DNA from: Pyramidobacter sp. C12-8
GTDB lineage: Bacteria > Synergistota > Synergistia > Synergistales > Dethiosulfovibrionaceae
Direction of reading: 5' to 3'
Length of the DNA: 54,660 nucleotides
Assembly: GCF_002007215.1 (NCBI RefSeq)
Contig: NZ_MUHX01000017.1
Location: 1 to 54,660 of the forward strand
In this document: positions 19,444 through 45,010 of the stretch, in pieces
How the letters are laid out: every line of letters begins with the position of its first letter
Numbering within the stretch: the stretch's first letter is position 1
Translations under genes and position numbers: made by a program
Notes under the pieces: generated by a model
The model's database searches: none
Seen by the model: the letters and a program-made list of their open reading frames with translations, nothing else
Told to the model about the DNA's origin: nothing

Positions 19444-21003
19444 TTATCTGGAAAAATACCGGTACAGCACTTTGGTGAACGAAGGAATGTTGGTCTGGGG
19501 CGCTGCGGCGCCGTTGGCGGCGGTGTAGGCGCTCTCCGCGGCGAGGCAGTTCGCGGCATCGGCGATCAGTGTTGCGCCAGTGACGCCGGAAAGCCCCGTT
19601 TTGCAACGGAAGAGGCGGGCCAGCAGCTCGACGGCTTCCATGCTGCTCACGAGGGCGAAGGCGGCGAACATGCAGATGCCGAGGTTCTCGAGGACGAAGA
19701 TCTGACGGTACATCAGTGTCATGTCGTCGACTCCGGTGAGTTCTTCGTAGGCGAGGTCCATTTTCACGGTGAAGCTTTTCTCGTCGGTGATGGCCGGCCG
19801 ATCCGTCAGCTTGCGCAGCGCCGGGTTATCGGGAAAGGCGGCGGCGATACCTTCCGTGCGGGAACCGATTAGACGCCCGGCTTTGCTGCCGCGTTCGATC
19901 TCGTCGACGAGCGCGAGCAGCGCCGGCTGGCTGGGAGCGAGTCCCTTGGCGGCGAAGTAGCTTCTGGCGGCCGTAACGAACTCGGGAAGCACTAGGCACA
20001 GGCTGCGGAGCCGTCGCTGGAGCCGCCGCGTGAAATCTTCGTCGTCGATCCCGAAGCAGTTTTTGAGGGCGGCGACGAGTTCGCTCTGATCCGGCGCGTC
20101 GTAGGTCGCGCCGTCGGCAGCGCTGTGCCGGTTGAGGCAGCCGATCACGCACATGGGGGCGCAGCAGTAATTTTTCTTTCGGGACGACGGGCGCTTTTCA
20201 GACGCGGCGACGCGCGGCGGGGGAGGCGATTTCTCCATCGCGCCGCCGCTTTTGAGCAGGCGCAGCAGCGTGATTGAACCGTGTGCGGGTAGAGCGGAAC
20301 CGCAGATTTCGTTGCGGACGATGAGCGAAGCCAACTCTTTTCCGGTGCGGGCGAACTCCTCCGGCGCGGCGCATTCGCGCGAAAAGTAGGCGCTGCCGGT
20401 GACGACGACCGCGCGCAGTCCCTTGCTTCCCGGGATGTCTCCGAAGCCGCTGCGCGGGCAGCTGTACTCGGGTTCACCGTCGGGGTACGTGCAGAAAAAG
20501 GTGGAAAGCGGCATTCTCATGTCACCGGCCATTCCCGTGCCGACGATGGCCGCTTCGCGGCCGAAACGGGATTTGAGCGCGGTGACGAGGTCGTCGGTGT
20601 AGAGAGCACCAAGCTCGGGCATATGAAGCAGTTCTGCCCCGTCTTCGCCGATGTGCAGCACGGCATTGCCGTCGCGGTCCGCGCCCTTGATGACTACCGC
20701 GCAGACATTCAGCGAGCCAAGTTTCTGCGGCATGTTGCCCGTCACGTTGCAGACCTGGATCGAGGTCTCGCCGCCTTTGGCGAGAACGGTCATCCGCCCG
20801 GCGCTGGGGGCGCGGCAGCCGGCGAACAGCCCCGGCGCGAAAACCAGCGCATTCTCCGGCGCATAGCGGCCCGTTTTCAGCGGTGTCTCCGCGGCCAGCA
20901 GTGCCACTGCCAGCCCGCGGCCGTAGAGCTTTTCCCTGCGGATGTCGTATTCTCTGTGTTCGATGCGTCCCGTCGAGAGGTCTACGGTATAGATTTTTTC
21001 CAC
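19444..21003 (-). CDS. Aldehyde:ferredoxin oxidoreductase family protein (short, divergent)
   Basis: A 519-residue member of the tungsten-dependent AOR family, which oxidises aldehydes to acids with ferredoxin. The N-terminal domain is clear: YTVDLSTGRIEHREYD, YGRGLAVALLA, CRAPSAGRMTVLAKGG, then GFGDIPGSKGLRAVVVTG. The iron-sulfur ligands are less regular: CCAPMCVIGC around residues 280-289 has one extra base of spacing compared with the usual CxxCxxxC. The fourth cysteine is likely in ENLGICMF (usually DxxGxC). It is about 80-100 residues shorter than typical AORs. The start is GTG 21003, six bases after the ATPase stop, so it closes the transporter operon. Activity may differ from classical AOR. 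Confidence 0.82.
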   Translation of the reverse strand: MEKIYTVDLSTGRIEHREYDIRREKLYGRGLAVALLAAETPLKTGRYAPENALVFAPGLFAGCRAPSAGRMTVLAKGGETSIQVCNVTGNMPQKLGSLNVCAVVIKGADRDGNAVLHIGEDGAELLHMPELGALYTDDLVTALKSRFGREAAIVGTGMAGDMRMPLSTFFCTYPDGEPEYSCPRSGFGDIPGSKGLRAVVVTGSAYFSRECAAPEEFARTGKELASLIVRNEICGSALPAHGSITLLRLLKSGGAMEKSPPPPRVAASEKRPSSRKKNYCCAPMCVIGCLNRHSAADGATYDAPDQSELVAALKNCFGIDDEDFTRRLQRRLRSLCLVLPEFVTAARSYFAAKGLAPSQPALLALVDEIERGSKAGRLIGSRTEGIAAAFPDNPALRKLTDRPAITDEKSFTVKMDLAYEELTGVDDMTLMYRQIFVLENLGICMFAAFALVSSMEAVELLARLFRCKTGLSGVTGATLIADAANCLAAESAYTAANGAAAPQTNIPSFTKVLYRYFSR

Positions 21004-21009
21004 GGACGT

Positions 21010-21798
21010 TCACTCTTTTCGTGTGGTATTGGGGGCCATGAAGAAGCCGTGGCTGCAGGGGAACAGCTCAATGTCTCCGTAGACGAGGGACAGTTTTTCT
21101 CTGAGTTCCTCGCGCGAAGCGTCCTTCATGGTGATCTCGCCGGTCAGAGCGCCCGCTTTGAGCAGCAGCAAGCGGTCGCAGTAGCGCATGGCGAAGTTGG
21201 GGTCGTGTAGGGTGATCAGTCCCGCTTTGCGTTCGCTGTGGATGACCGATCGGATCTTTTCCAGTACCATCTGGCGGTTCAGAAAGTCCAGAGCGCTGTC
21301 GGGTTCGTCCATGAGCATCACCGGCGTGTTCTGAACGAGGCAGCGGGCGAGGATTACGATCTGCCGCTGTCCCTGGCTCAGCGCGGCGAAATCCCGGCGC
21401 GCGAACGCGGCGCAGCCGAGACGGTCCAGAGTGACTAGCGCGGCCTGCTTCTGTGCTTTCGAGGGAGATTCGAACAGTCCCAGCTGCGTGTTAAAACCCA
21501 TCATGACGATTTCGAGCGCCGTTTTGCCGGCCATGACGCCGCAGTTCTGCGGGATAAAGGCGATCAGCCGCGCGCGTTCTCTCTCGTTCATGGCGGAGCA
21601 ATCCTGCCCGTTCACAGCGCAGCTTCCGGACATCGGCAGTAGGCCGCAGGAAGCGTGCAGGATCGTCGTCTTGCCGCTGCCGTTGAGTCCGAGCAGCGCG
21701 CAGAACTCGCCGGCGCGAATGTCGAAGCTCACGCTGTGGATGATCTCGTCGCGGGCGTAGGCGATGCGCAGCCCGCGCAGGGAAAAGATCCTGCTCAC
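21010..21798 (-). CDS. FecE/BtuD-type ABC transporter ATPase
   Basis: A 262-residue ATPase of the siderophore/cobalamin/molybdate (FecCD) transporter class. Walker A is GLNGSGKTT, the Q-loop is in IAFIPQNCGVMAGKT, the signature is LSQGQRQ, Walker B is PVMLMDEPDSALD and the H-loop is LITLHDPN. The start is GTG 21798, overlapping the permease stop by four bases (GTGA). The signature LSQGQRQ instead of LSGGQ is common in this class. It works with the permease and receptor upstream; see the AOR-like gene downstream for the cargo hypothesis. Confidence 0.93.
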   Translation of the reverse strand: MSRIFSLRGLRIAYARDEIIHSVSFDIRAGEFCALLGLNGSGKTTILHASCGLLPMSGSCAVNGQDCSAMNERERARLIAFIPQNCGVMAGKTALEIVMMGFNTQLGLFESPSKAQKQAALVTLDRLGCAAFARRDFAALSQGQRQIVILARCLVQNTPVMLMDEPDSALDFLNRQMVLEKIRSVIHSERKAGLITLHDPNFAMRYCDRLLLLKAGALTGEITMKDASREELREKLSLVYGDIELFPCSHGFFMAPNTTRKE

Positions 21799-22814
21799 AG
21801 CAGACGCTCTCTTCCGATGCACATGAAGTAGAGCAGCAGCGGCACGCCGATTACCGTGGTGAGGATGGAGATGGGCAGCTCGGCACTGTAGAGCACGCGC
21901 GCGAGGATGTCCGCGGCGAGTACGATGAAAGCGCCCGTTGCGCCGCTCATGCAGAGCGTCGTCGAGTTGTTCCGCCTGAGCATAAGCCGCGCGGTGTGCG
22001 GCGCGATCAGCCCGGCGAAAGCGACCAGTCCCGTCACGCTGACGATCGACGCCACCAGCAGTGTGGAGAGGATCAGTACGGCGATTCGCGTGGGCTTCAG
22101 GCGCACACCCAGCGCGCGGCATTCGTCCTCGCTCAGTCCCATCAGGTCGATCTGACGCCGCAGCAGGATCAGCCCGGCGAGCCCGGCCGCGAACATCGGC
22201 AGCACTGCCAGCAGCTTGGCGCGGGTGATGTTGCCGAAGGTCCCCATCTCCCAGTACTCCATGGCTGCCAGCTCGTTTTCCGGGTCGGCGAAGTATTTCA
22301 GCGCCATGATCATGGCGCGCGACAGAGCGTTGATCACGATGCCCGCGAGAACGTAGGTGGAGGTGGAGTGCGAGCGCGTCACCCTGACCAGCAGCATGAC
22401 GCCCGCGACGGCGGCAAATCCGCCGGTGAACGCGCCGACGGCGATGGCGGGCACGCTGAGGGCCGACATGGCGACAATGGCCGCCGCAGCGCCGAGATTC
22501 GCGCCGCCGGCCACGCCGATGATGTCGGGCGAGGCCAGCGGGTTTTTGAAAATCGTCTGGTAGACGCTGCCGGCGAAGCCGAGCCCGACTCCGGCCAGCA
22601 TGGCCATCAGCGTCCGCGGCAGGCGCAGCGTGAAAAACACCTTGCGGGTCATCGCGGGTACGTCGGCGCTGCCACGGAACATGGCGAGTATCTCGCCGGG
22701 AAAGATGCGGTATTTCCCCACGCAGATCGAGGTCGCCGCCGCGACCAGAATCGCCAGAAGCGTCAGGATGAAGAATGGCGCGACCGGCCTTTCCAGAGGT
22801 TCGGAAGCGTTCAT
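21795..22814 (-). CDS. FecCD/BtuC-type ABC transporter permease
   Basis: A 339-residue permease of the FecCD family with about ten helices. Motifs include RLPRTLMAMLAGVGLGFAGS, YQTIFKNPLASPDIIGVAGG, the cytoplasmic MGLSEDECRALG loop and VTGLVAFAGLIAPHTARL. ATG 22814 overlaps the receptor stop (TGATG); an alternative TTG one codon earlier is unlikely. Its length and motifs fit BtuC, FhuB-type and MolB-type importers alike, so the cargo (siderophore iron, cobalamin, molybdate or tungstate) is not decided by this protein. Confidence 0.93.
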   Translation of the reverse strand: MNASEPLERPVAPFFILTLLAILVAAATSICVGKYRIFPGEILAMFRGSADVPAMTRKVFFTLRLPRTLMAMLAGVGLGFAGSVYQTIFKNPLASPDIIGVAGGANLGAAAAIVAMSALSVPAIAVGAFTGGFAAVAGVMLLVRVTRSHSTSTYVLAGIVINALSRAMIMALKYFADPENELAAMEYWEMGTFGNITRAKLLAVLPMFAAGLAGLILLRRQIDLMGLSEDECRALGVRLKPTRIAVLILSTLLVASIVSVTGLVAFAGLIAPHTARLMLRRNNSTTLCMSGATGAFIVLAADILARVLYSAELPISILTTVIGVPLLLYFMCIGRERLL

Positions 22815-23911
22815 CAAGCGACGTTGCGCCCTGCGCCCCGCATGCCGAGGAAGGCGACGGGTGCGTCCTGTTTTCGGGGCGCGAGGTTCGAGGCGTCCAT
22901 GTCGAAGCCGTAGAAGGTCTTGTAGAAATTGGCCGCGTCCGCCGCAAACTCAGCCGCGGAATAAAGCTTGGGGTGCAGCGCCGAAACCATCCAGAGCATG
23001 CCAAGCACGCCCGACGGTACAGGCGAGTCCCAGGCCTCGAAGCCTGTCGGCATGTTGTACACCATGCCGTTCTTGACGGCCTTGACCTCGGCGAGGTGTT
23101 CGTCCGCGGAAATCTCTGCGGCCGTGAAGCCAGGCTGTCCGCTGGCCATGTTGTTGGTCGGGATGATAATGACATCGGGATTCATAGCGAGGATCTGCTC
23201 GTAGGACACTTTGGTCCACGAGTCGCCGTCGAGGACGCTGCCTGCGTTTTTCCCGCCAGCCGAGGCGATCAGCGAAGCCTGGTACATGTCGCGCGGGGCG
23301 GTGCTCAGGTACGAAGCGGGGCTGCAGAGATAGACCGAGGGTTTCTGGCCGTCGGGAATCGCGGCGGTCAGCTTCTTGACCTTGGCGCTGATCTCGTCGT
23401 AACGGGCGATCAGCTTTTTGGCTGCATCGGCGGTTCCGGTCGCCCGGCCGATGAGCGTGATCATCTCGACGAGGCGGCGGTGGTTCTCGGGATTGACGAC
23501 GAGCACGGGGACGTCCATCTCCGCAAGGGTGGCGGCGTAATCCTTGCCCCGCTTGGGCAGGATGACGAGGTCGGGTTTGGCGGCGATGCAGGCCTCCAGG
23601 TCAAAGTTTTTGGCGGATCCAACGTTGCCCACGGTTCCGATCAGCTCGGGCGCGGCCAGTTTGTAAATAGGGCGCACCTCAATCTTCTCCTCAAGGGCGG
23701 CCAGGCGGAGTTTGAGTCCGAGCGCCAGACAGGCGGAAGAAGAAATGTAATAGCCGGAAACGATGCGTTTCGGAAGCGCTTTCAGCGTGACCGTCCTTCC
23801 GATTTGATCCGTGACTGTGAGCGGAAATTCCGAAACGTTTGGCTGCGCGACCGCCGCACTCGCGCCGAAAAACGCCAGCGTTGCCAAGAGCTGTACCGCG
23901 ATTCTTTTCAT
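22814..23911 (-). CDS. Class III substrate-binding protein (FecB/BtuF/MolA-like)
   Basis: A 365-residue periplasmic receptor. A signal peptide (MKRIAVQLLATLAFFGASA) precedes VTDQIGRTVTLKALPKRIVSG, the family opening. FDLEACIAAKPDLVILPKRG and EQILAMNPDVIIIPTNN are typical of the two lobes joined by a long helix. ATG 23911 follows AAAGGAGAATTC; the longer frame upstream has no ribosome site. It heads a four-gene operon ending in the AOR-like gene. No TonB-dependent receptor or siderophore gene is near, which makes siderophore uptake less compelling than a metal oxoanion. Confidence 0.92.
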   Translation of the reverse strand: MKRIAVQLLATLAFFGASAAVAQPNVSEFPLTVTDQIGRTVTLKALPKRIVSGYYISSSACLALGLKLRLAALEEKIEVRPIYKLAAPELIGTVGNVGSAKNFDLEACIAAKPDLVILPKRGKDYAATLAEMDVPVLVVNPENHRRLVEMITLIGRATGTADAAKKLIARYDEISAKVKKLTAAIPDGQKPSVYLCSPASYLSTAPRDMYQASLIASAGGKNAGSVLDGDSWTKVSYEQILAMNPDVIIIPTNNMASGQPGFTAAEISADEHLAEVKAVKNGMVYNMPTGFEAWDSPVPSGVLGMLWMVSALHPKLYSAAEFAADAANFYKTFYGFDMDASNLAPRKQDAPVAFLGMRGAGRNVA

Positions 23912-24108
23912 GGTGCCGAATTCTCCTTTTCTTGTTTCTCGGAGCGCGTGTTTCGTTCGCCCCGGGGATCCCTTTTGAATAACGCGTTTCAATGAATTTA
24001 TCCGCGTTGGTCGAGCGGCATGTTTAAAATTATTTTCAGTAGTGAGTATAACGTAAAGGAATCTTAAGCGCAAGGTGGAAAGACTCTCTTGAAAAAGCTC
24101 TTCACTCT

Positions 24109-40688: not shown

Positions 40689-43004
40689 ATGATTACTTTG
40701 ATCGACAGGCCGGTGACGCTGTTCGGGGGAACGGCGCTGGTGCCCGAGGCGGAAAAACTCGAGGCGCGGGAACTGAATGCGCGGCTCGCGGAAAAAGGAA
40801 TTCACTACGGAGGCGCGCTGCCTGTCGGAAGCGGCGAGGGCACGATGGCCCGCCGCATCGTCGCCGCGCACGATTCCGCTCGGGGCGACGGTCTGATGCA
40901 TTTGAAGTTCGACGCGCTGACTTCGCACGACATCACCTACGTGGCGGCGCTGCAGACGGCCGTCGCCTGCGGGCTGGAGAAGTTCCCCGTGCCCTACGTG
41001 CTCACCAACTGCCACAACAGCCTCTGCGCCGTGGGCGGCACGATCAACGAGGACGACCACATGTTCGGCCTTACGGCGGCGCGGAAGTTCGGCGGCATTT
41101 TCGTGCCCCGTCACCTGGCCGTGATCCACCAGTACATGCGCGAGGCCGTGGCCAAAAGCGGCGGCATGATCCTCGGCACCGACAGCCACACCCGCTACGG
41201 CGCGCTGGGGACGCTGGCCGTCGGCGAAGGCGGGCCGGAAATGGTCAAGCAGCTTCTCGGCCGCACCTACGACTTCGCCTGGCCGGGCGTGATCGCCGTC
41301 TATCTGACCGGCGCGCCCCGTCCCGGCGTGGGGCCTCACGACGTGGCGCTGGCGATTTGCGGCGCGGTGTTTAAAAACGGATTCGTGAAAAACAAAGCGA
41401 TGGAATTCGTCGGCCCCGGCGTCTCCAGCTTGAGCGCCGAGTTCCGCCTCGGCGTCGACGTGATGACCACGGAGACGGCCTGCTGGAGTTCGATCTGGCG
41501 CACCGACGAGAAGATCGCAGAATTCTTCCGCGTCCACGGCCGCCCTCAGGACTACGCCCCGCTCGAACCCGACGCGGCGGCCCGTTACGACGGCGCGCTC
41601 GTCGTCGACCTGAGCGCCGTCGAGCCGATGATCGCCGTGCCGTTCCATCCCAGCAACGCCTACACCATCGCCGACTTCAAGGCCAACGCCGGCGACATCC
41701 TGCGTCAGGCCGAACGGGACGCGCGCGAACTGATGGACAATCCCGAGCTGGACATCGACCTGACCGGCAAGCTGCGCGGCGGAACGTTTCACGTCGAACA
41801 GGGCGTGATCTGCGGCTGCGCCGGCGGCAACTTCGAAAACCTCGTCGCCGCGGCGCAGATCCTCGACGGCGGCAGCACCGGCTGCGGCAGCTTCGGCCTC
41901 AGCGTCTATCCGTCCAGCATGCCCGTCGGCGAGGCGCTGATGAACGGCGGCTGGATGCAGAAACTACTAAGCGCCGGAGCGGTCAACTATCCGGCCTTCT
42001 GCGGCCCCTGCTTCGGCGCCGGCGAAACGCCCTGCAACCAGGGCTTCAGCGTCAGACACACGACGCGCAACTTCCCCAATCGCGAAGGTTCCAAGCCCAA
42101 CGCCGGCCAGTGGTCGGCCGTGGCCCTCATGGACGCGCGCAGCATCGCCGCCACGGCGGCCAACGGCGGCGTGCTCACCAGCGCTTTCGAGTTCGCCGAC
42201 CGCCTCGCGGGACACGAGCCGTACGTCTTCGACGGCGAAATTTACGCCAAACGCGTCTATAACGGCTTCGGCAGGCCGCGGCCGGAGACGGCGCTCCGCT
42301 ACGGCCCCAACATCAAGCCGTGGCCCGAGATCGCCCCGCTGCCGGAGAACCAGCTGCTGCTGGTCGCCTCGGTGATCGACGATCCCGTCACCACCACCGA
42401 CGAGCTGATCCCTTCCGGCGAAACTTCGTCGCTGCGCAGCAACCCGCTCAAGCTGGCCGAGTTCACGCTGCAGCGCAAGGATCCAAATTACGTGCCCGCG
42501 GCCAAGAGGGCGAAAGCGCTCGAAGAAGCGCGCGCCGCGGCGGTGAAAGACGGCGGCGAGATGCCCGCGGAGCTGAAAAAACTGCTCGACCTCGCCGGGA
42601 TCGCCGCCGAACGCGTCGGCCTCGGCAGCCTCGTCTGCGCCGTCAAACCCGGCGACGGCTCGGCGCGCGAGCAGGCCGCCAGCAGCCAGAAAATGCTGGG
42701 CGGCCAGGCCAATGTGGCCCGCGAGTACGCCACCAAACGCTACCGCAGCAACCTCGTCAACTGGGGCATGGCCCCGTGGATCGTCGGCGACGCAGACCGC
42801 GCCAAGTTCAAAACCGGCGCCTGGCTTTTCGTCCCCGGCGTGAAGGCGTTCGTGAGCGGCGACGGCACGGAGATCGAAGCCGAACTGCTCGACGGCGGAA
42901 CGCGCCTCCCCGTGACGCTGTCGCTGCCCGGCGTCACGCGCGGCGAGCGGGACATGCTCCTCGCCGGCTGTCTGATGAACGCCTACCGCGCCGAGAAAAA
43001 ATAG
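40689..43004 (+). CDS. Aconitase-family hydratase
   Basis: A 771-residue member of the aconitase superfamily with a predicted [4Fe-4S] cluster. Residues 80-200 show YVLTNCHNSLCAVGGTINEDDH and GMILGTDSHTRYGALGTLAVGEGG (the GTDSHT motif of aconitases). The cluster ligands are probably the cysteines in VICGCAGGNFEN and in AFCGPCFGAGETPCNQG. A C-terminal swivel-like domain with RKDPNYVP and SSQKMLGGQANVAREYATKRYR follows. Size and motifs fit the YbhJ-type 'hydratase' branch rather than housekeeping aconitase A, so the substrate is uncertain. ATG 40689 follows GGAGAAAGAGGGG. It is monocistronic, with a strong terminator, and divergent from the FbpABC-like operon. Confidence 0.88.
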   Translation: MITLIDRPVTLFGGTALVPEAEKLEARELNARLAEKGIHYGGALPVGSGEGTMARRIVAAHDSARGDGLMHLKFDALTSHDITYVAALQTAVACGLEKFPVPYVLTNCHNSLCAVGGTINEDDHMFGLTAARKFGGIFVPRHLAVIHQYMREAVAKSGGMILGTDSHTRYGALGTLAVGEGGPEMVKQLLGRTYDFAWPGVIAVYLTGAPRPGVGPHDVALAICGAVFKNGFVKNKAMEFVGPGVSSLSAEFRLGVDVMTTETACWSSIWRTDEKIAEFFRVHGRPQDYAPLEPDAAARYDGALVVDLSAVEPMIAVPFHPSNAYTIADFKANAGDILRQAERDARELMDNPELDIDLTGKLRGGTFHVEQGVICGCAGGNFENLVAAAQILDGGSTGCGSFGLSVYPSSMPVGEALMNGGWMQKLLSAGAVNYPAFCGPCFGAGETPCNQGFSVRHTTRNFPNREGSKPNAGQWSAVALMDARSIAATAANGGVLTSAFEFADRLAGHEPYVFDGEIYAKRVYNGFGRPRPETALRYGPNIKPWPEIAPLPENQLLLVASVIDDPVTTTDELIPSGETSSLRSNPLKLAEFTLQRKDPNYVPAAKRAKALEEARAAAVKDGGEMPAELKKLLDLAGIAAERVGLGSLVCAVKPGDGSAREQAASSQKMLGGQANVAREYATKRYRSNLVNWGMAPWIVGDADRAKFKTGAWLFVPGVKAFVSGDGTEIEAELLDGGTRLPVTLSLPGVTRGERDMLLAGCLMNAYRAEKK

Positions 43005-43021
43005 CCAAACGAACAAAAACG

Positions 43022-43072
43022 AAAGGATCCGCGTGGACTCTTTGAATTAAGAAGTCCGTGCGGATCCTTTTC
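43022..43072 (+). terminator. Terminator after the aconitase-family gene
   Basis: A stem AAAGGATCCGC...GCGGATCCTTT with inner TGGACT/AGTCC pairing, followed by TCTC; the stem itself ends in TTTT. Confidence 0.8.
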
Positions 43073-43121
43073 TCGATCGGCCGTAGCCGATTTCAGGCGA
43101 AAACGTCCCTTTTCGACGTCA

Positions 43122-43161
43122 TAATATTAGCTTGACAAATATTAAATTCATATGCTAGGCT
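43122..43161 (+). promoter_or_regulatory. Promoter with inverted repeat over the -35 (methyltransferase-MarR gene)
   Basis: TTGACA (43132-43137), an 18-base spacer and TAGGCT (43156-43161) form a likely promoter. TAATATT (43122-43128) and AATATTA (43138-43144) are exact inverted repeats bracketing the -35. This is the kind of palindrome bound by MarR proteins, so the MarR domain encoded downstream may regulate its own gene. Confidence 0.55.
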
Positions 43162-43218
43162 TTTAATTGAAAATTTTCGACGAAGGAGCGTCCCTTCGGA
43201 AAGGAGGCGGAAGACGCC

Positions 43219-44658
43219 ATGGGACCTGCGAAAAGCGGATTGCTCCGGTATTACCGCATCCTGCGCGCCCATCAGGAAGCGCAGCTGCTCTTTGCGGCGC
43301 TGCGTCTGGACGTTTTTTCCCATCTCGACCAGCCGGCGGCGGCCGAAGCGGTCGCCAAAGAGCTGCGAGTTGAAACGGAGCGGATCGGGCCGCTGCTTCT
43401 GGCGCTGAGTTCCTGCGGTTTCGTCGCCAAGCAGGGGGAGTTCTACGTGAACGCGCCGGAAACGCGGGAGTTCCTATCCCGCGCCGGCCGGCTCTTTCTG
43501 GGCGACATATTGCTGTTTCGCGAAAAGATGACCTCTCTGGCCGATCTGGAAGAACGCGTGCGATCCGCCGCGCCGAAGCGCGGCGCGCCCTGCGATTTCG
43601 CGGAGCTGGCGAAACTGGCTGTTCCCGAAATGTACGCGACGGGGCGCGTGGAAGCCTTTCTCAAGAAGATGGACGCGCTCTATCCTGAGCGGAACCGGCC
43701 GCTGCGCCTGCTGGACCTGGGCGGCGGCGCGGGGATCATGGCCATAGAGTTCGCCAAGCGTTTCCCCCGCGGCAACGCCGTCGTTTTCGAGACGCCGCTC
43801 GTGGCGCCGCTGGCGGAAGAAACGATACGCCGGAGCGGCGCCGACGGGCGCGTCGGCGTCAGAAGCGGCGATTTTAATATAGATCCGCTGGGCGGCCCCT
43901 TTGACCTCGTCGTCGCCTCGGGCATCCTGAATTTCGTGGAAGGCCCTCTGCCCCGTTTTCTCGCCAGAGTCGCGGCGTCTCTGGCCGAAGGCGGACATCT
44001 GCTCGTCGTCGGGGCCTATGCGGAAAACGAAGGGGAAGCTCCGCCCAACGCGCTCGCCTGGCTGCCCGCTTTCCTTGGCGGCGCGCCGCTGCCGCCGAGC
44101 CGGAAGGAGATCGCGGCGGCAGCGCGGGAAGCGGGGCTCGAGCCGGCCGGTCTCTTCGACGGCGGCATGTTCGAAGGCCGTCTGTACCGCAAAGGCGGCG
44201 CAGAAACCGGCGTGCGTTCCGACGACGTGGTCCGCGCTTTTATCGAACTGACGGAGCGGATCGCCAACGGCAAGACGAACGTCCTTGATTTCGGCAGCGA
44301 GGAAATGACGTTCTACCGCGGCGAGATCCACATGATCAAGATGATCGGCGACGTCCCTGGCATCCACAGCGCCGAGCTGGCCCGCCGCTTCGGCATCACC
44401 CCGCCGGTCGTCCACAAGACGCTGCAGAAACTGAGCGAGCGCGGCCTGATCCGCAAAGAGGACGATCCCGACGACAAAAAGCGCTTCCTCCTCCATCTGA
44501 CGGGAAAAGGACAACGGGCCTACCGCGCCCACGAAAAGTACCACGACGAGAACGATCGGGCGCTTTTCGATTTCCTCGCCGAAATGCCGGAAGAACGGCT
44601 GGCCGACGTGAAAGGCTTTCTCGACCGCGCTATCGGTCTGATCAGGAACCACGCCTGA
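43219..44658 (+). CDS. O-methyltransferase-like domain fused to a MarR-family DNA-binding domain
   Basis: A 479-residue two-part protein. Residues 1-100 form a winged-helix dimerisation segment as in O-methyltransferases (LRLDVFSHLDQPAAAEAVAKEL; LLALSSCGFVAKQGEFYVN). About 155-310 is a class I SAM methyltransferase core: RLLDLGGGAGIMAIEFAKRF (motif I), VFETPLVAPLAE, GDFNIDPLGGPFDLVVASGIL and LAEGGHLLVVG. A linker leads to a MarR wing-helix at about 335-479 (FYRGEIHMIKMIGDVPGIHSAELARRFG, PPVVHKTLQKLSERGLIRKEDDPDDKKR, LTGKGQRAYRAHEKYHDENDRAL). ATG 43219 follows GAAAGGAGGCGG. Both halves are full length and in one frame with no sign of a sequencing join. It could be a SAM- or substrate-sensing repressor; the target is unknown. 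Confidence 0.88.
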   Translation: MGPAKSGLLRYYRILRAHQEAQLLFAALRLDVFSHLDQPAAAEAVAKELRVETERIGPLLLALSSCGFVAKQGEFYVNAPETREFLSRAGRLFLGDILLFREKMTSLADLEERVRSAAPKRGAPCDFAELAKLAVPEMYATGRVEAFLKKMDALYPERNRPLRLLDLGGGAGIMAIEFAKRFPRGNAVVFETPLVAPLAEETIRRSGADGRVGVRSGDFNIDPLGGPFDLVVASGILNFVEGPLPRFLARVAASLAEGGHLLVVGAYAENEGEAPPNALAWLPAFLGGAPLPPSRKEIAAAAREAGLEPAGLFDGGMFEGRLYRKGGAETGVRSDDVVRAFIELTERIANGKTNVLDFGSEEMTFYRGEIHMIKMIGDVPGIHSAELARRFGITPPVVHKTLQKLSERGLIRKEDDPDDKKRFLLHLTGKGQRAYRAHEKYHDENDRALFDFLAEMPEERLADVKGFLDRAIGLIRNHA

Positions 44659-44747
44659 GTCGCCGAACAAAAAACATTTACGGGACGCGAGGAAAACATG
44701 GAGACGCCGGAGACGGGAAAGTTTCCGCCGTCAAGAAGCCAGACGCC

Positions 44748-44802
44748 AAGACGCGGCGCTGATAAGACGTGCAAACGTTTTATCGCTGCCGTGTCTTTTT
44801 TT
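44748..44802 (+). terminator. Terminator after the methyltransferase-MarR gene
   Basis: A long imperfect stem (AAGACGCGGC...GATAAGACGT with ACGTTTTATC...GCTGCCGTGTCTT) followed by TTTTTTT. Confidence 0.85.
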
Positions 44803-45010
44803 CGATCTGGCCGGAAGGAGAATCGGCAATGGAAGGAGATTCGTTCGTCAGGAAAGTCAAACGGAAGAGCCGCGCGGACTGTGCTGGACCTGATCCCGCG
44901 TTTTTTGACCGTTTACACGGCTGGTCATAGCGGGGACTTTGGGGGGCGCTTTTGTCATTCGGCGTTTCAATCAAGAAACAGTATCAGGATATTGCGGCTG
45001 GACGGGAAAA
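44803..45010. other. Non-coding region; one weak small-ORF candidate
   Basis: With the terminator, this makes a 352-base gap between genes. The only coding hint is a 33-codon frame at 44829-44930 (MEGDSFVRKVKRKSRADC...) with AAGGAG eight bases upstream, basic and cysteine-containing but similar to nothing I know. No promoter or repeat was convincing. The frame may be chance. Confidence 0.3.

Follow-up and report, generated by a model that had tools for sequence, protein, structure and literature searches.

A 54,660-nucleotide stretch of DNA from Pyramidobacter sp. C12-8 (the window) contains a gene in which a SAM methyltransferase runs in one frame into a MarR repressor domain, raising the question of whether the two halves form a functional unit and, if so, what such a protein would regulate. 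The gene (43219–44658, plus strand) is a single intact frame of 479 codons with an ATG start, preceded at a distance of 11 nt by the Shine–Dalgarno sequence AAGGAGG (43201–43207, plus strand). Residues 1 to 325 of the encoded protein correspond to a class I SAM methyltransferase of the Methyltransf_2 type with its dimerisation domain, and residues 336 to 479 to a full MarR winged helix, with both halves scoring above the curated Pfam cut-offs. In the N-terminal half, the dimerisation domain (residues 20–87; 43276–43479, plus strand) matches PF08100 at 29.9 bits against a cut-off of 25.6, and the SAM-binding Rossmann core (residues 163–277; 43705–44049, plus strand) matches Methyltransf_2, PF00891, at 45 bits against 22.3; Methyltransf_23 also matches residues 146–308 above its curated cut-off. 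The MarR domain (44224–44655, plus strand) matches MarR_2, PF12802, at 44.9 bits over residues 373–422 (cut-off 27) and MarR, PF01047, at 33.6 bits (cut-off 24.6), and harbors the invariant residues His371, His438, His442, and His478. The MarR fold is present in an AF2 model; the AF2 model of the full-length protein has a low pTM of 0.56, too low for interpreting the mutual placement of the halves. The C-terminal half is a member of the MarR family by test, as originally predicted, while the N-terminal half falls within the Methyltransf_2 fold family but lacks that family's catalytic hallmark; the predicted complete O-methyltransferase-like unit is borne out in its fold and SAM motifs and not in its catalytic histidine. 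Searches of the open-licence literature returned no description of an architecture or module combining MarR with a SAM methyltransferase, which is weak evidence of absence and agrees with the expectation that the arrangement is undescribed.

The methyltransferase half contains motif I, LDLGGGAG, at residues 165–172, the acidic residue E191, and a GDF motif at residues 217–219. The SAM-binding residues D166, G168–G170, G172, E191, G217, and F219 are invariant in an alignment of 12 sequences, a pattern suggesting that this half still binds SAM, and outside the SAM core M104, D126, F127, P136, and Y139 are conserved. The catalytic histidine of the Methyltransf_2 LHDW motif is Leu237 here, and no aligned family member has histidine at this position. 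At the aligned position the histidine is also missing from DsyB, the solved relative nearest in sequence, so that its loss is not proof of inactivity, given that DsyB-type S-methyltransferases do without it. True catalysis by this half is possible, though we put it somewhat below even odds. The phenolic or thiol methyl acceptor that had been proposed is disfavored, both by the missing histidine and by the genomic context of the family, which is most commonly metal-chelate-type transport and not phenol metabolism.

Within the MarR half, His371, His438, and His442 align with the site-1 zinc ligands His42, His108, and His112 of ZitR/AdcR (ligands from PMC6372160). The fourth site-1 ligand, Glu24, is Asn354 in the fusion, the zinc site 2 residues (Cys30, Glu41, and Glu107) are not carried at the aligned positions, and the AdcR zinc-regulator profile NF038251 gives 22.7 bits against a cut-off of 175. 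ZitR is among the closest folds to the MarR model, with TM scores of 0.75–0.77. The best sequence-profile match and the top fold match is FabT, which carries the same three histidines and is acyl-ACP responsive; the aligned histidines therefore do not prove metal binding. Since the remaining AdcR ligands are also not kept, metal sensing is a suggestion only. A stand-alone MarR encoded in the same genome (L002; G000:C100:58819–59160) is 39% identical to the fusion and also has the EIHML and HxxxH histidines.

The same fused gene is present in seven genomes, that of the window and six others. Full-length homologues with 58–59% identity occur in Caproicibacter, Konateibacter, and Oscillibacter, and three further genomes have the fused frame; measured per half, the gene is 47–75% identical to the other fused members. 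When each half was treed separately, all seven fused proteins were monophyletic, with support of 100/99 in the methyltransferase tree and 98/96 in the MarR tree, which is most simply explained by a single fusion event. Both halves are under purifying selection, as judged from the two closest fused genes, L004 and L006 (dN/dS of about 0.14 and 0.09). In 11 genomes the methyltransferase and MarR are separate genes, and in 10 of these the methyltransferase directly precedes MarR, sometimes overlapping it; the one split locus without adjacency (L097:7213–9976) has a substrate-binding-protein gene between the two. Anaerotignum neopropionicum (L010) likewise makes the methyltransferase and MarR as separate proteins and has an importer. 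Because the same pair occurs as neighboring genes elsewhere and is fused here, the separate proteins are predicted to act as one unit. Neither half is strictly dependent on the other, however, since MarR also occurs on its own (L009), as does the methyltransferase (L077 and L079). A plasmid search yielded no full-length copies of the fusion.

In the host genome, the fusion gene lies on a 2.0-kb insert (42998–45004); in its place, a same-species genome and a congener have a conserved intergenic stretch of 382 bp. The two stretches share 98% identity, and the same-species genome, with the conserved empty site, lacks the fusion gene. Only one of 151 genomes of the host's class carries the fusion, and relatives have relaxase, serine recombinase, and Cys_rich_KTR genes in their vicinity; one of them (L072) adjoins both a MobA-type relaxase and a serine recombinase. 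The empty site, the rarity in the class, and the mobility genes near relatives indicate that the fusion gene here is on a horizontally acquired cassette. The intergenic site is a variable insertion site: at the same position, another congener (L027:2836–8077) has a different insert, with genes for an amidohydrolase-like and a YadA-like adhesin-type protein plus a further, partial copy of the amidohydrolase end. The GC3 of the fusion, 0.78, is close to that of neighboring host genes (0.83–0.89) and far from that of clostridial homologues (0.29–0.50), indicating that the transfer was not very recent or that the donor was GC rich.

Downstream of the fusion are two relics on the plus strand. What remains of a Cys_rich_KTR gene is its 3′ end (VKKPDAKTRR, then stop), which runs into a terminator-type hairpin (44730–44802), as it does downstream of the Oscillibacter and Caproicibacter fusions. 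It is followed by the frameshifted N terminus of an ABC half-transporter gene (44829–44925; a weak tblastx match), at the place where L004 and L006 have an intact gene; the order is the same as that of the intact Oscillibacter genes. For both ABC halves the genome has orthologues at another location, next to a TetR gene. The 66 bp conserved between the fusion and the ABC gene raised the possibility of an RNA switch, which was rejected because these bases are the Cys_rich_KTR gene end and terminator; an Rfam search gave no meaningful match.

Upstream, the 7-bp inverted repeat originally described as bracketing the −35 element is present as TAATATT-AGCTTGACA-AATATTA at 43122–43144 (plus strand; palindromic element over the −35, TAATATTAGCTTGACAAATATTA), so that positions 43122–44658 comprise exactly operator, promoter, and gene. 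The −35 element TTGACA (43132–43137, plus strand) forms the center of the candidate operator, at a position kept in homologues, and is followed after an 18-nt spacer by a probable −10 element, TAGGCT (43156–43161, plus strand), which aligns with TATACT or TATATT in the homologues. The weakness of this −10 explains why the −35 was not listed in a simple promoter scan. The candidate operator is unique within the window, and TAATATTNNNTTGACAAATATTA is unique genome-wide with up to three mismatches. By palindrome score within the window, the repeat does not rise above shuffled sequence, and in so AT-rich a promoter it could be due to chance. Its credibility comes from the homologues, whose promoters have a CTTGAC-centered site at the equivalent position, with near-perfect arms in several cases. 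Of the seven fused genes, six have such a site upstream, as do all split methyltransferase–MarR operons except L096; none was found upstream of L073 or L096. Evidence for an operator comes from the palindromic arms alone, since TTGACA also matches the −35 consensus. These arms are near-perfect (TTGTATGCTTGACATACAA) in several split members, such as L083, L087, L074, and L086, and degenerate in several members of the fused clade; several split members also have the motif a second time, over the −10, as GTATACTTGGCATAC. The retention of an element overlapping the −35 supports the predicted autoregulation of the fusion gene through the candidate operator, which would match the MarR-family feature of a palindromic operator in the regulator's own promoter. 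The stand-alone MarR of Enterococcus crotali (L009:5917–6435), 58% identical to the fusion C terminus, also has a CTTGAC palindrome shortly before its probable start, and a TauE-like permease gene adjoins it.

The commonest genomic context of the module is a metal-chelate-type ABC importer. Genes for a FecB-type binding protein, a FecCD permease, and an ATPase lie beside the module at eight loci (L072, L074, L078, L081, L083, L086, L087, and L096), and the binding protein is similar to iron-complex binders that include MolA (HI_1472) and 4ino, a nickel/iron binding protein from Helicobacter. The cargo varies among relatives: a saccharopine-dehydrogenase-like gene is found at L073, L084, L085, and L090, and ABC half-transporter genes at L004 and L006. 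The near-identical loci L075, L076, and L080 have a split pair with no adjacent transporter, and flavodoxin-like, NapH-like, and PadR-like genes upstream. At L099, a UbiE-type methyltransferase gene, unrelated to the Methyltransf_2 one, directly precedes the MarR orthologue in an importer operon, which suggests that it is important for this MarR to have methyltransferase activity nearby. The full gene run at this locus (L099:2621–11237) is an uncharacterised nitrogenase-like cluster holding an Oxidored_nitro pair (430 and 397 aa), a FecB/FecCD/FecE importer, the UbiE-type methyltransferase, the MarR orthologue, a second methyltransferase, and ABC permease genes. Elsewhere in the window, an aldehyde-ferredoxin-oxidoreductase-type gene is situated beside genes for an ABC ATPase, a FecCD-like permease, and a substrate-binding protein (19444–24073, minus strand); this region contains no copy of the candidate operator.

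The gene probably encodes a fused, autoregulated repressor, and we regard it as highly likely that the halves form one functional unit under autoregulation. As a whole, the observations are best explained by a one-component repressor that is autoregulated and has a ligand domain of the enzyme type, a reading to which we assign a probability of roughly 55%. A dimer of the C-terminal MarR domain would bind the palindrome over its own −35 and block its own promoter. In relatives, the same promoter would drive downstream cargo, mostly an importer consisting of substrate-binding protein, FecCD permease, and ATPase, and alternatively the ABC half-transporters or the saccharopine-dehydrogenase-like oxidoreductase. 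The N-terminal half, a dimeric class I methyltransferase, is predicted from its invariant motifs to bind SAM together with a small molecule, most likely a chelate or cofactor handled by the cargo, and binding or methylation of this molecule would gate repression. That both cargo and signal are related to metal chelates is an even bet. The two halves would once have been neighboring, cotranscribed genes with jointly acting products that were joined a single time; in the present host, the fusion would have arrived on the mobile cassette and the downstream ABC gene decayed, the sole operator found being the fusion's own.

Several parts of this evidence could be read differently. The methyltransferase fold might serve as a noncatalytic receptor that senses the level of SAM or SAH and controls the MarR half, as in SahR, which offers a precedent; the SAM motifs are invariant while the O-methyltransferase histidine is lost in all members. 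Yet the cargo comprises transporters and an oxidoreductase in place of SAM-cycle genes, residues beyond the SAM core are conserved, L099 has substituted an unrelated methyltransferase, and the DsyB-type enzymes show that loss of the histidine need not mean inactivity, so we consider such a sensor unlikely. Similarly unlikely, in our estimate, is a metal-dependent repressor of the AdcR/ZitR kind, whose MarR half would bind Zn, Fe, Ni, or Co via the three histidines, with the methyltransferase merely a coexpressed tailoring enzyme for a metallophore. The alignment of the histidines with ZitR site 1, the rank of ZitR among the best folds, the metal-chelate-type importers nearby, and the reported opine-zincophore clusters that have methyltransferases as well as FecCD importers (PMC7438024) argue for it. 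The same histidines in FabT, the replacement of Glu24 by Asn, the absent site 2, and the low AdcR profile score argue against it, as does a nonexhaustive search that recognized no metallophore synthesis genes adjoining the loci. If the methyltransferase half instead methylated the inducer sensed by the MarR half, the protein would reset itself and end its own signal. Fusion and gene order fix the proportion of enzyme to repressor, and autoregulation would raise the enzyme level when inducer is present; however, the catalytic histidine is absent, and in the split species the proteins are separate, whereas a tight reset would require them to form a complex. We judge this improbable, and give equally little credence to the related notion of an enzyme-repressor that both reads and rewrites its signal by methylating the metal chelate or cofactor that controls its MarR half.

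Two further accounts appear extremely improbable and were rejected. In Streptomyces, the regulator of trans-aconitate methyltransferase, TamR, acts as a repressor of the aconitase gene (PMC5487221), and the position of a MarR beside an aconitase-family gene (40689–43004) recalls it, suggesting control of that gene by aconitate. But the aconitase gene is present in congeners that lack the fusion, no homologue examined lies near a recognized aconitase, and the methyltransferase half belongs to Methyltransf_2 and matches trans-aconitate methyltransferase only marginally (E 0.007); the aconitase gene is an ancestral neighbor that predates the insert. The split relatives and the ABC relic downstream might raise the suspicion that two genes were joined by sequencing error or read-through, or that the gene is a pseudogene in decay. 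The gene is nevertheless intact, host-like in GC3, and matched by the same fused frame in six other genomes, and the single clade of fused proteins in seven genomes excludes an error. The original prediction had treated two separate genes in relatives as a sign of sequence error; split relatives do exist, but as an unfused related form.

Regulators whose input domain is a methyltransferase fold are few, and the proposed repressor would extend them to the MarR family; through the fusion the uncharacterised methyltransferase–MarR–importer module of other anaerobes becomes testable. Were the read-and-rewrite version true, a single polypeptide would contain its own timer and would have spread, as a mobile regulatory cassette, among distantly related bacteria. 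Compared with known systems, the methyltransferase half shares its dimerisation domain, SAM core, and fold with DsyB/DSYB, ASMT, DnrK, and RedM, none of which has a MarR domain; the ASMT-type O-methyltransferases have the catalytic histidine that the fusion and, at the aligned position, DsyB lack. TamR together with trans-aconitate methyltransferase likewise links a MarR regulator to a methyltransferase, but in Streptomyces these are separate genes with a different methyltransferase family and different targets. FabT responds to acyl-ACP, regulates fatty acid synthesis, and has no methyltransferase partner. ZitR and AdcR resemble the fusion in fold, in the three aligned site-1 histidines, and in the metal-transport context, but differ in having no methyltransferase domain and in the zinc ligands and profile that the fusion does not share. 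SahR is a two-domain protein with a winged helix–turn–helix (HTH) and a SAM methyltransferase-like domain, although its methyltransferase family differs from that of the fusion and its HTH comes first. It is an SAH-responsive repressor of the ArsR family (PMC4239095), and the Ensifer sahR gene has a listed length of 1023 bp (PMC8877191), more than a bare ArsR protein would be expected to need. Both SahR and the fusion are winged-helix repressors with autoregulation by a palindrome, predicted in the case of the fusion. The HTH of SahR is of the ArsR type and regulates SAM-cycle genes, whereas that of the fusion is MarR and has other neighbors, and the generic ArsR/SmtB profile NF033788 gives the fusion only 16 bits against a cut-off of 55. 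Among known systems, the fusion may work most like SahR, yet it is not a SahR member.
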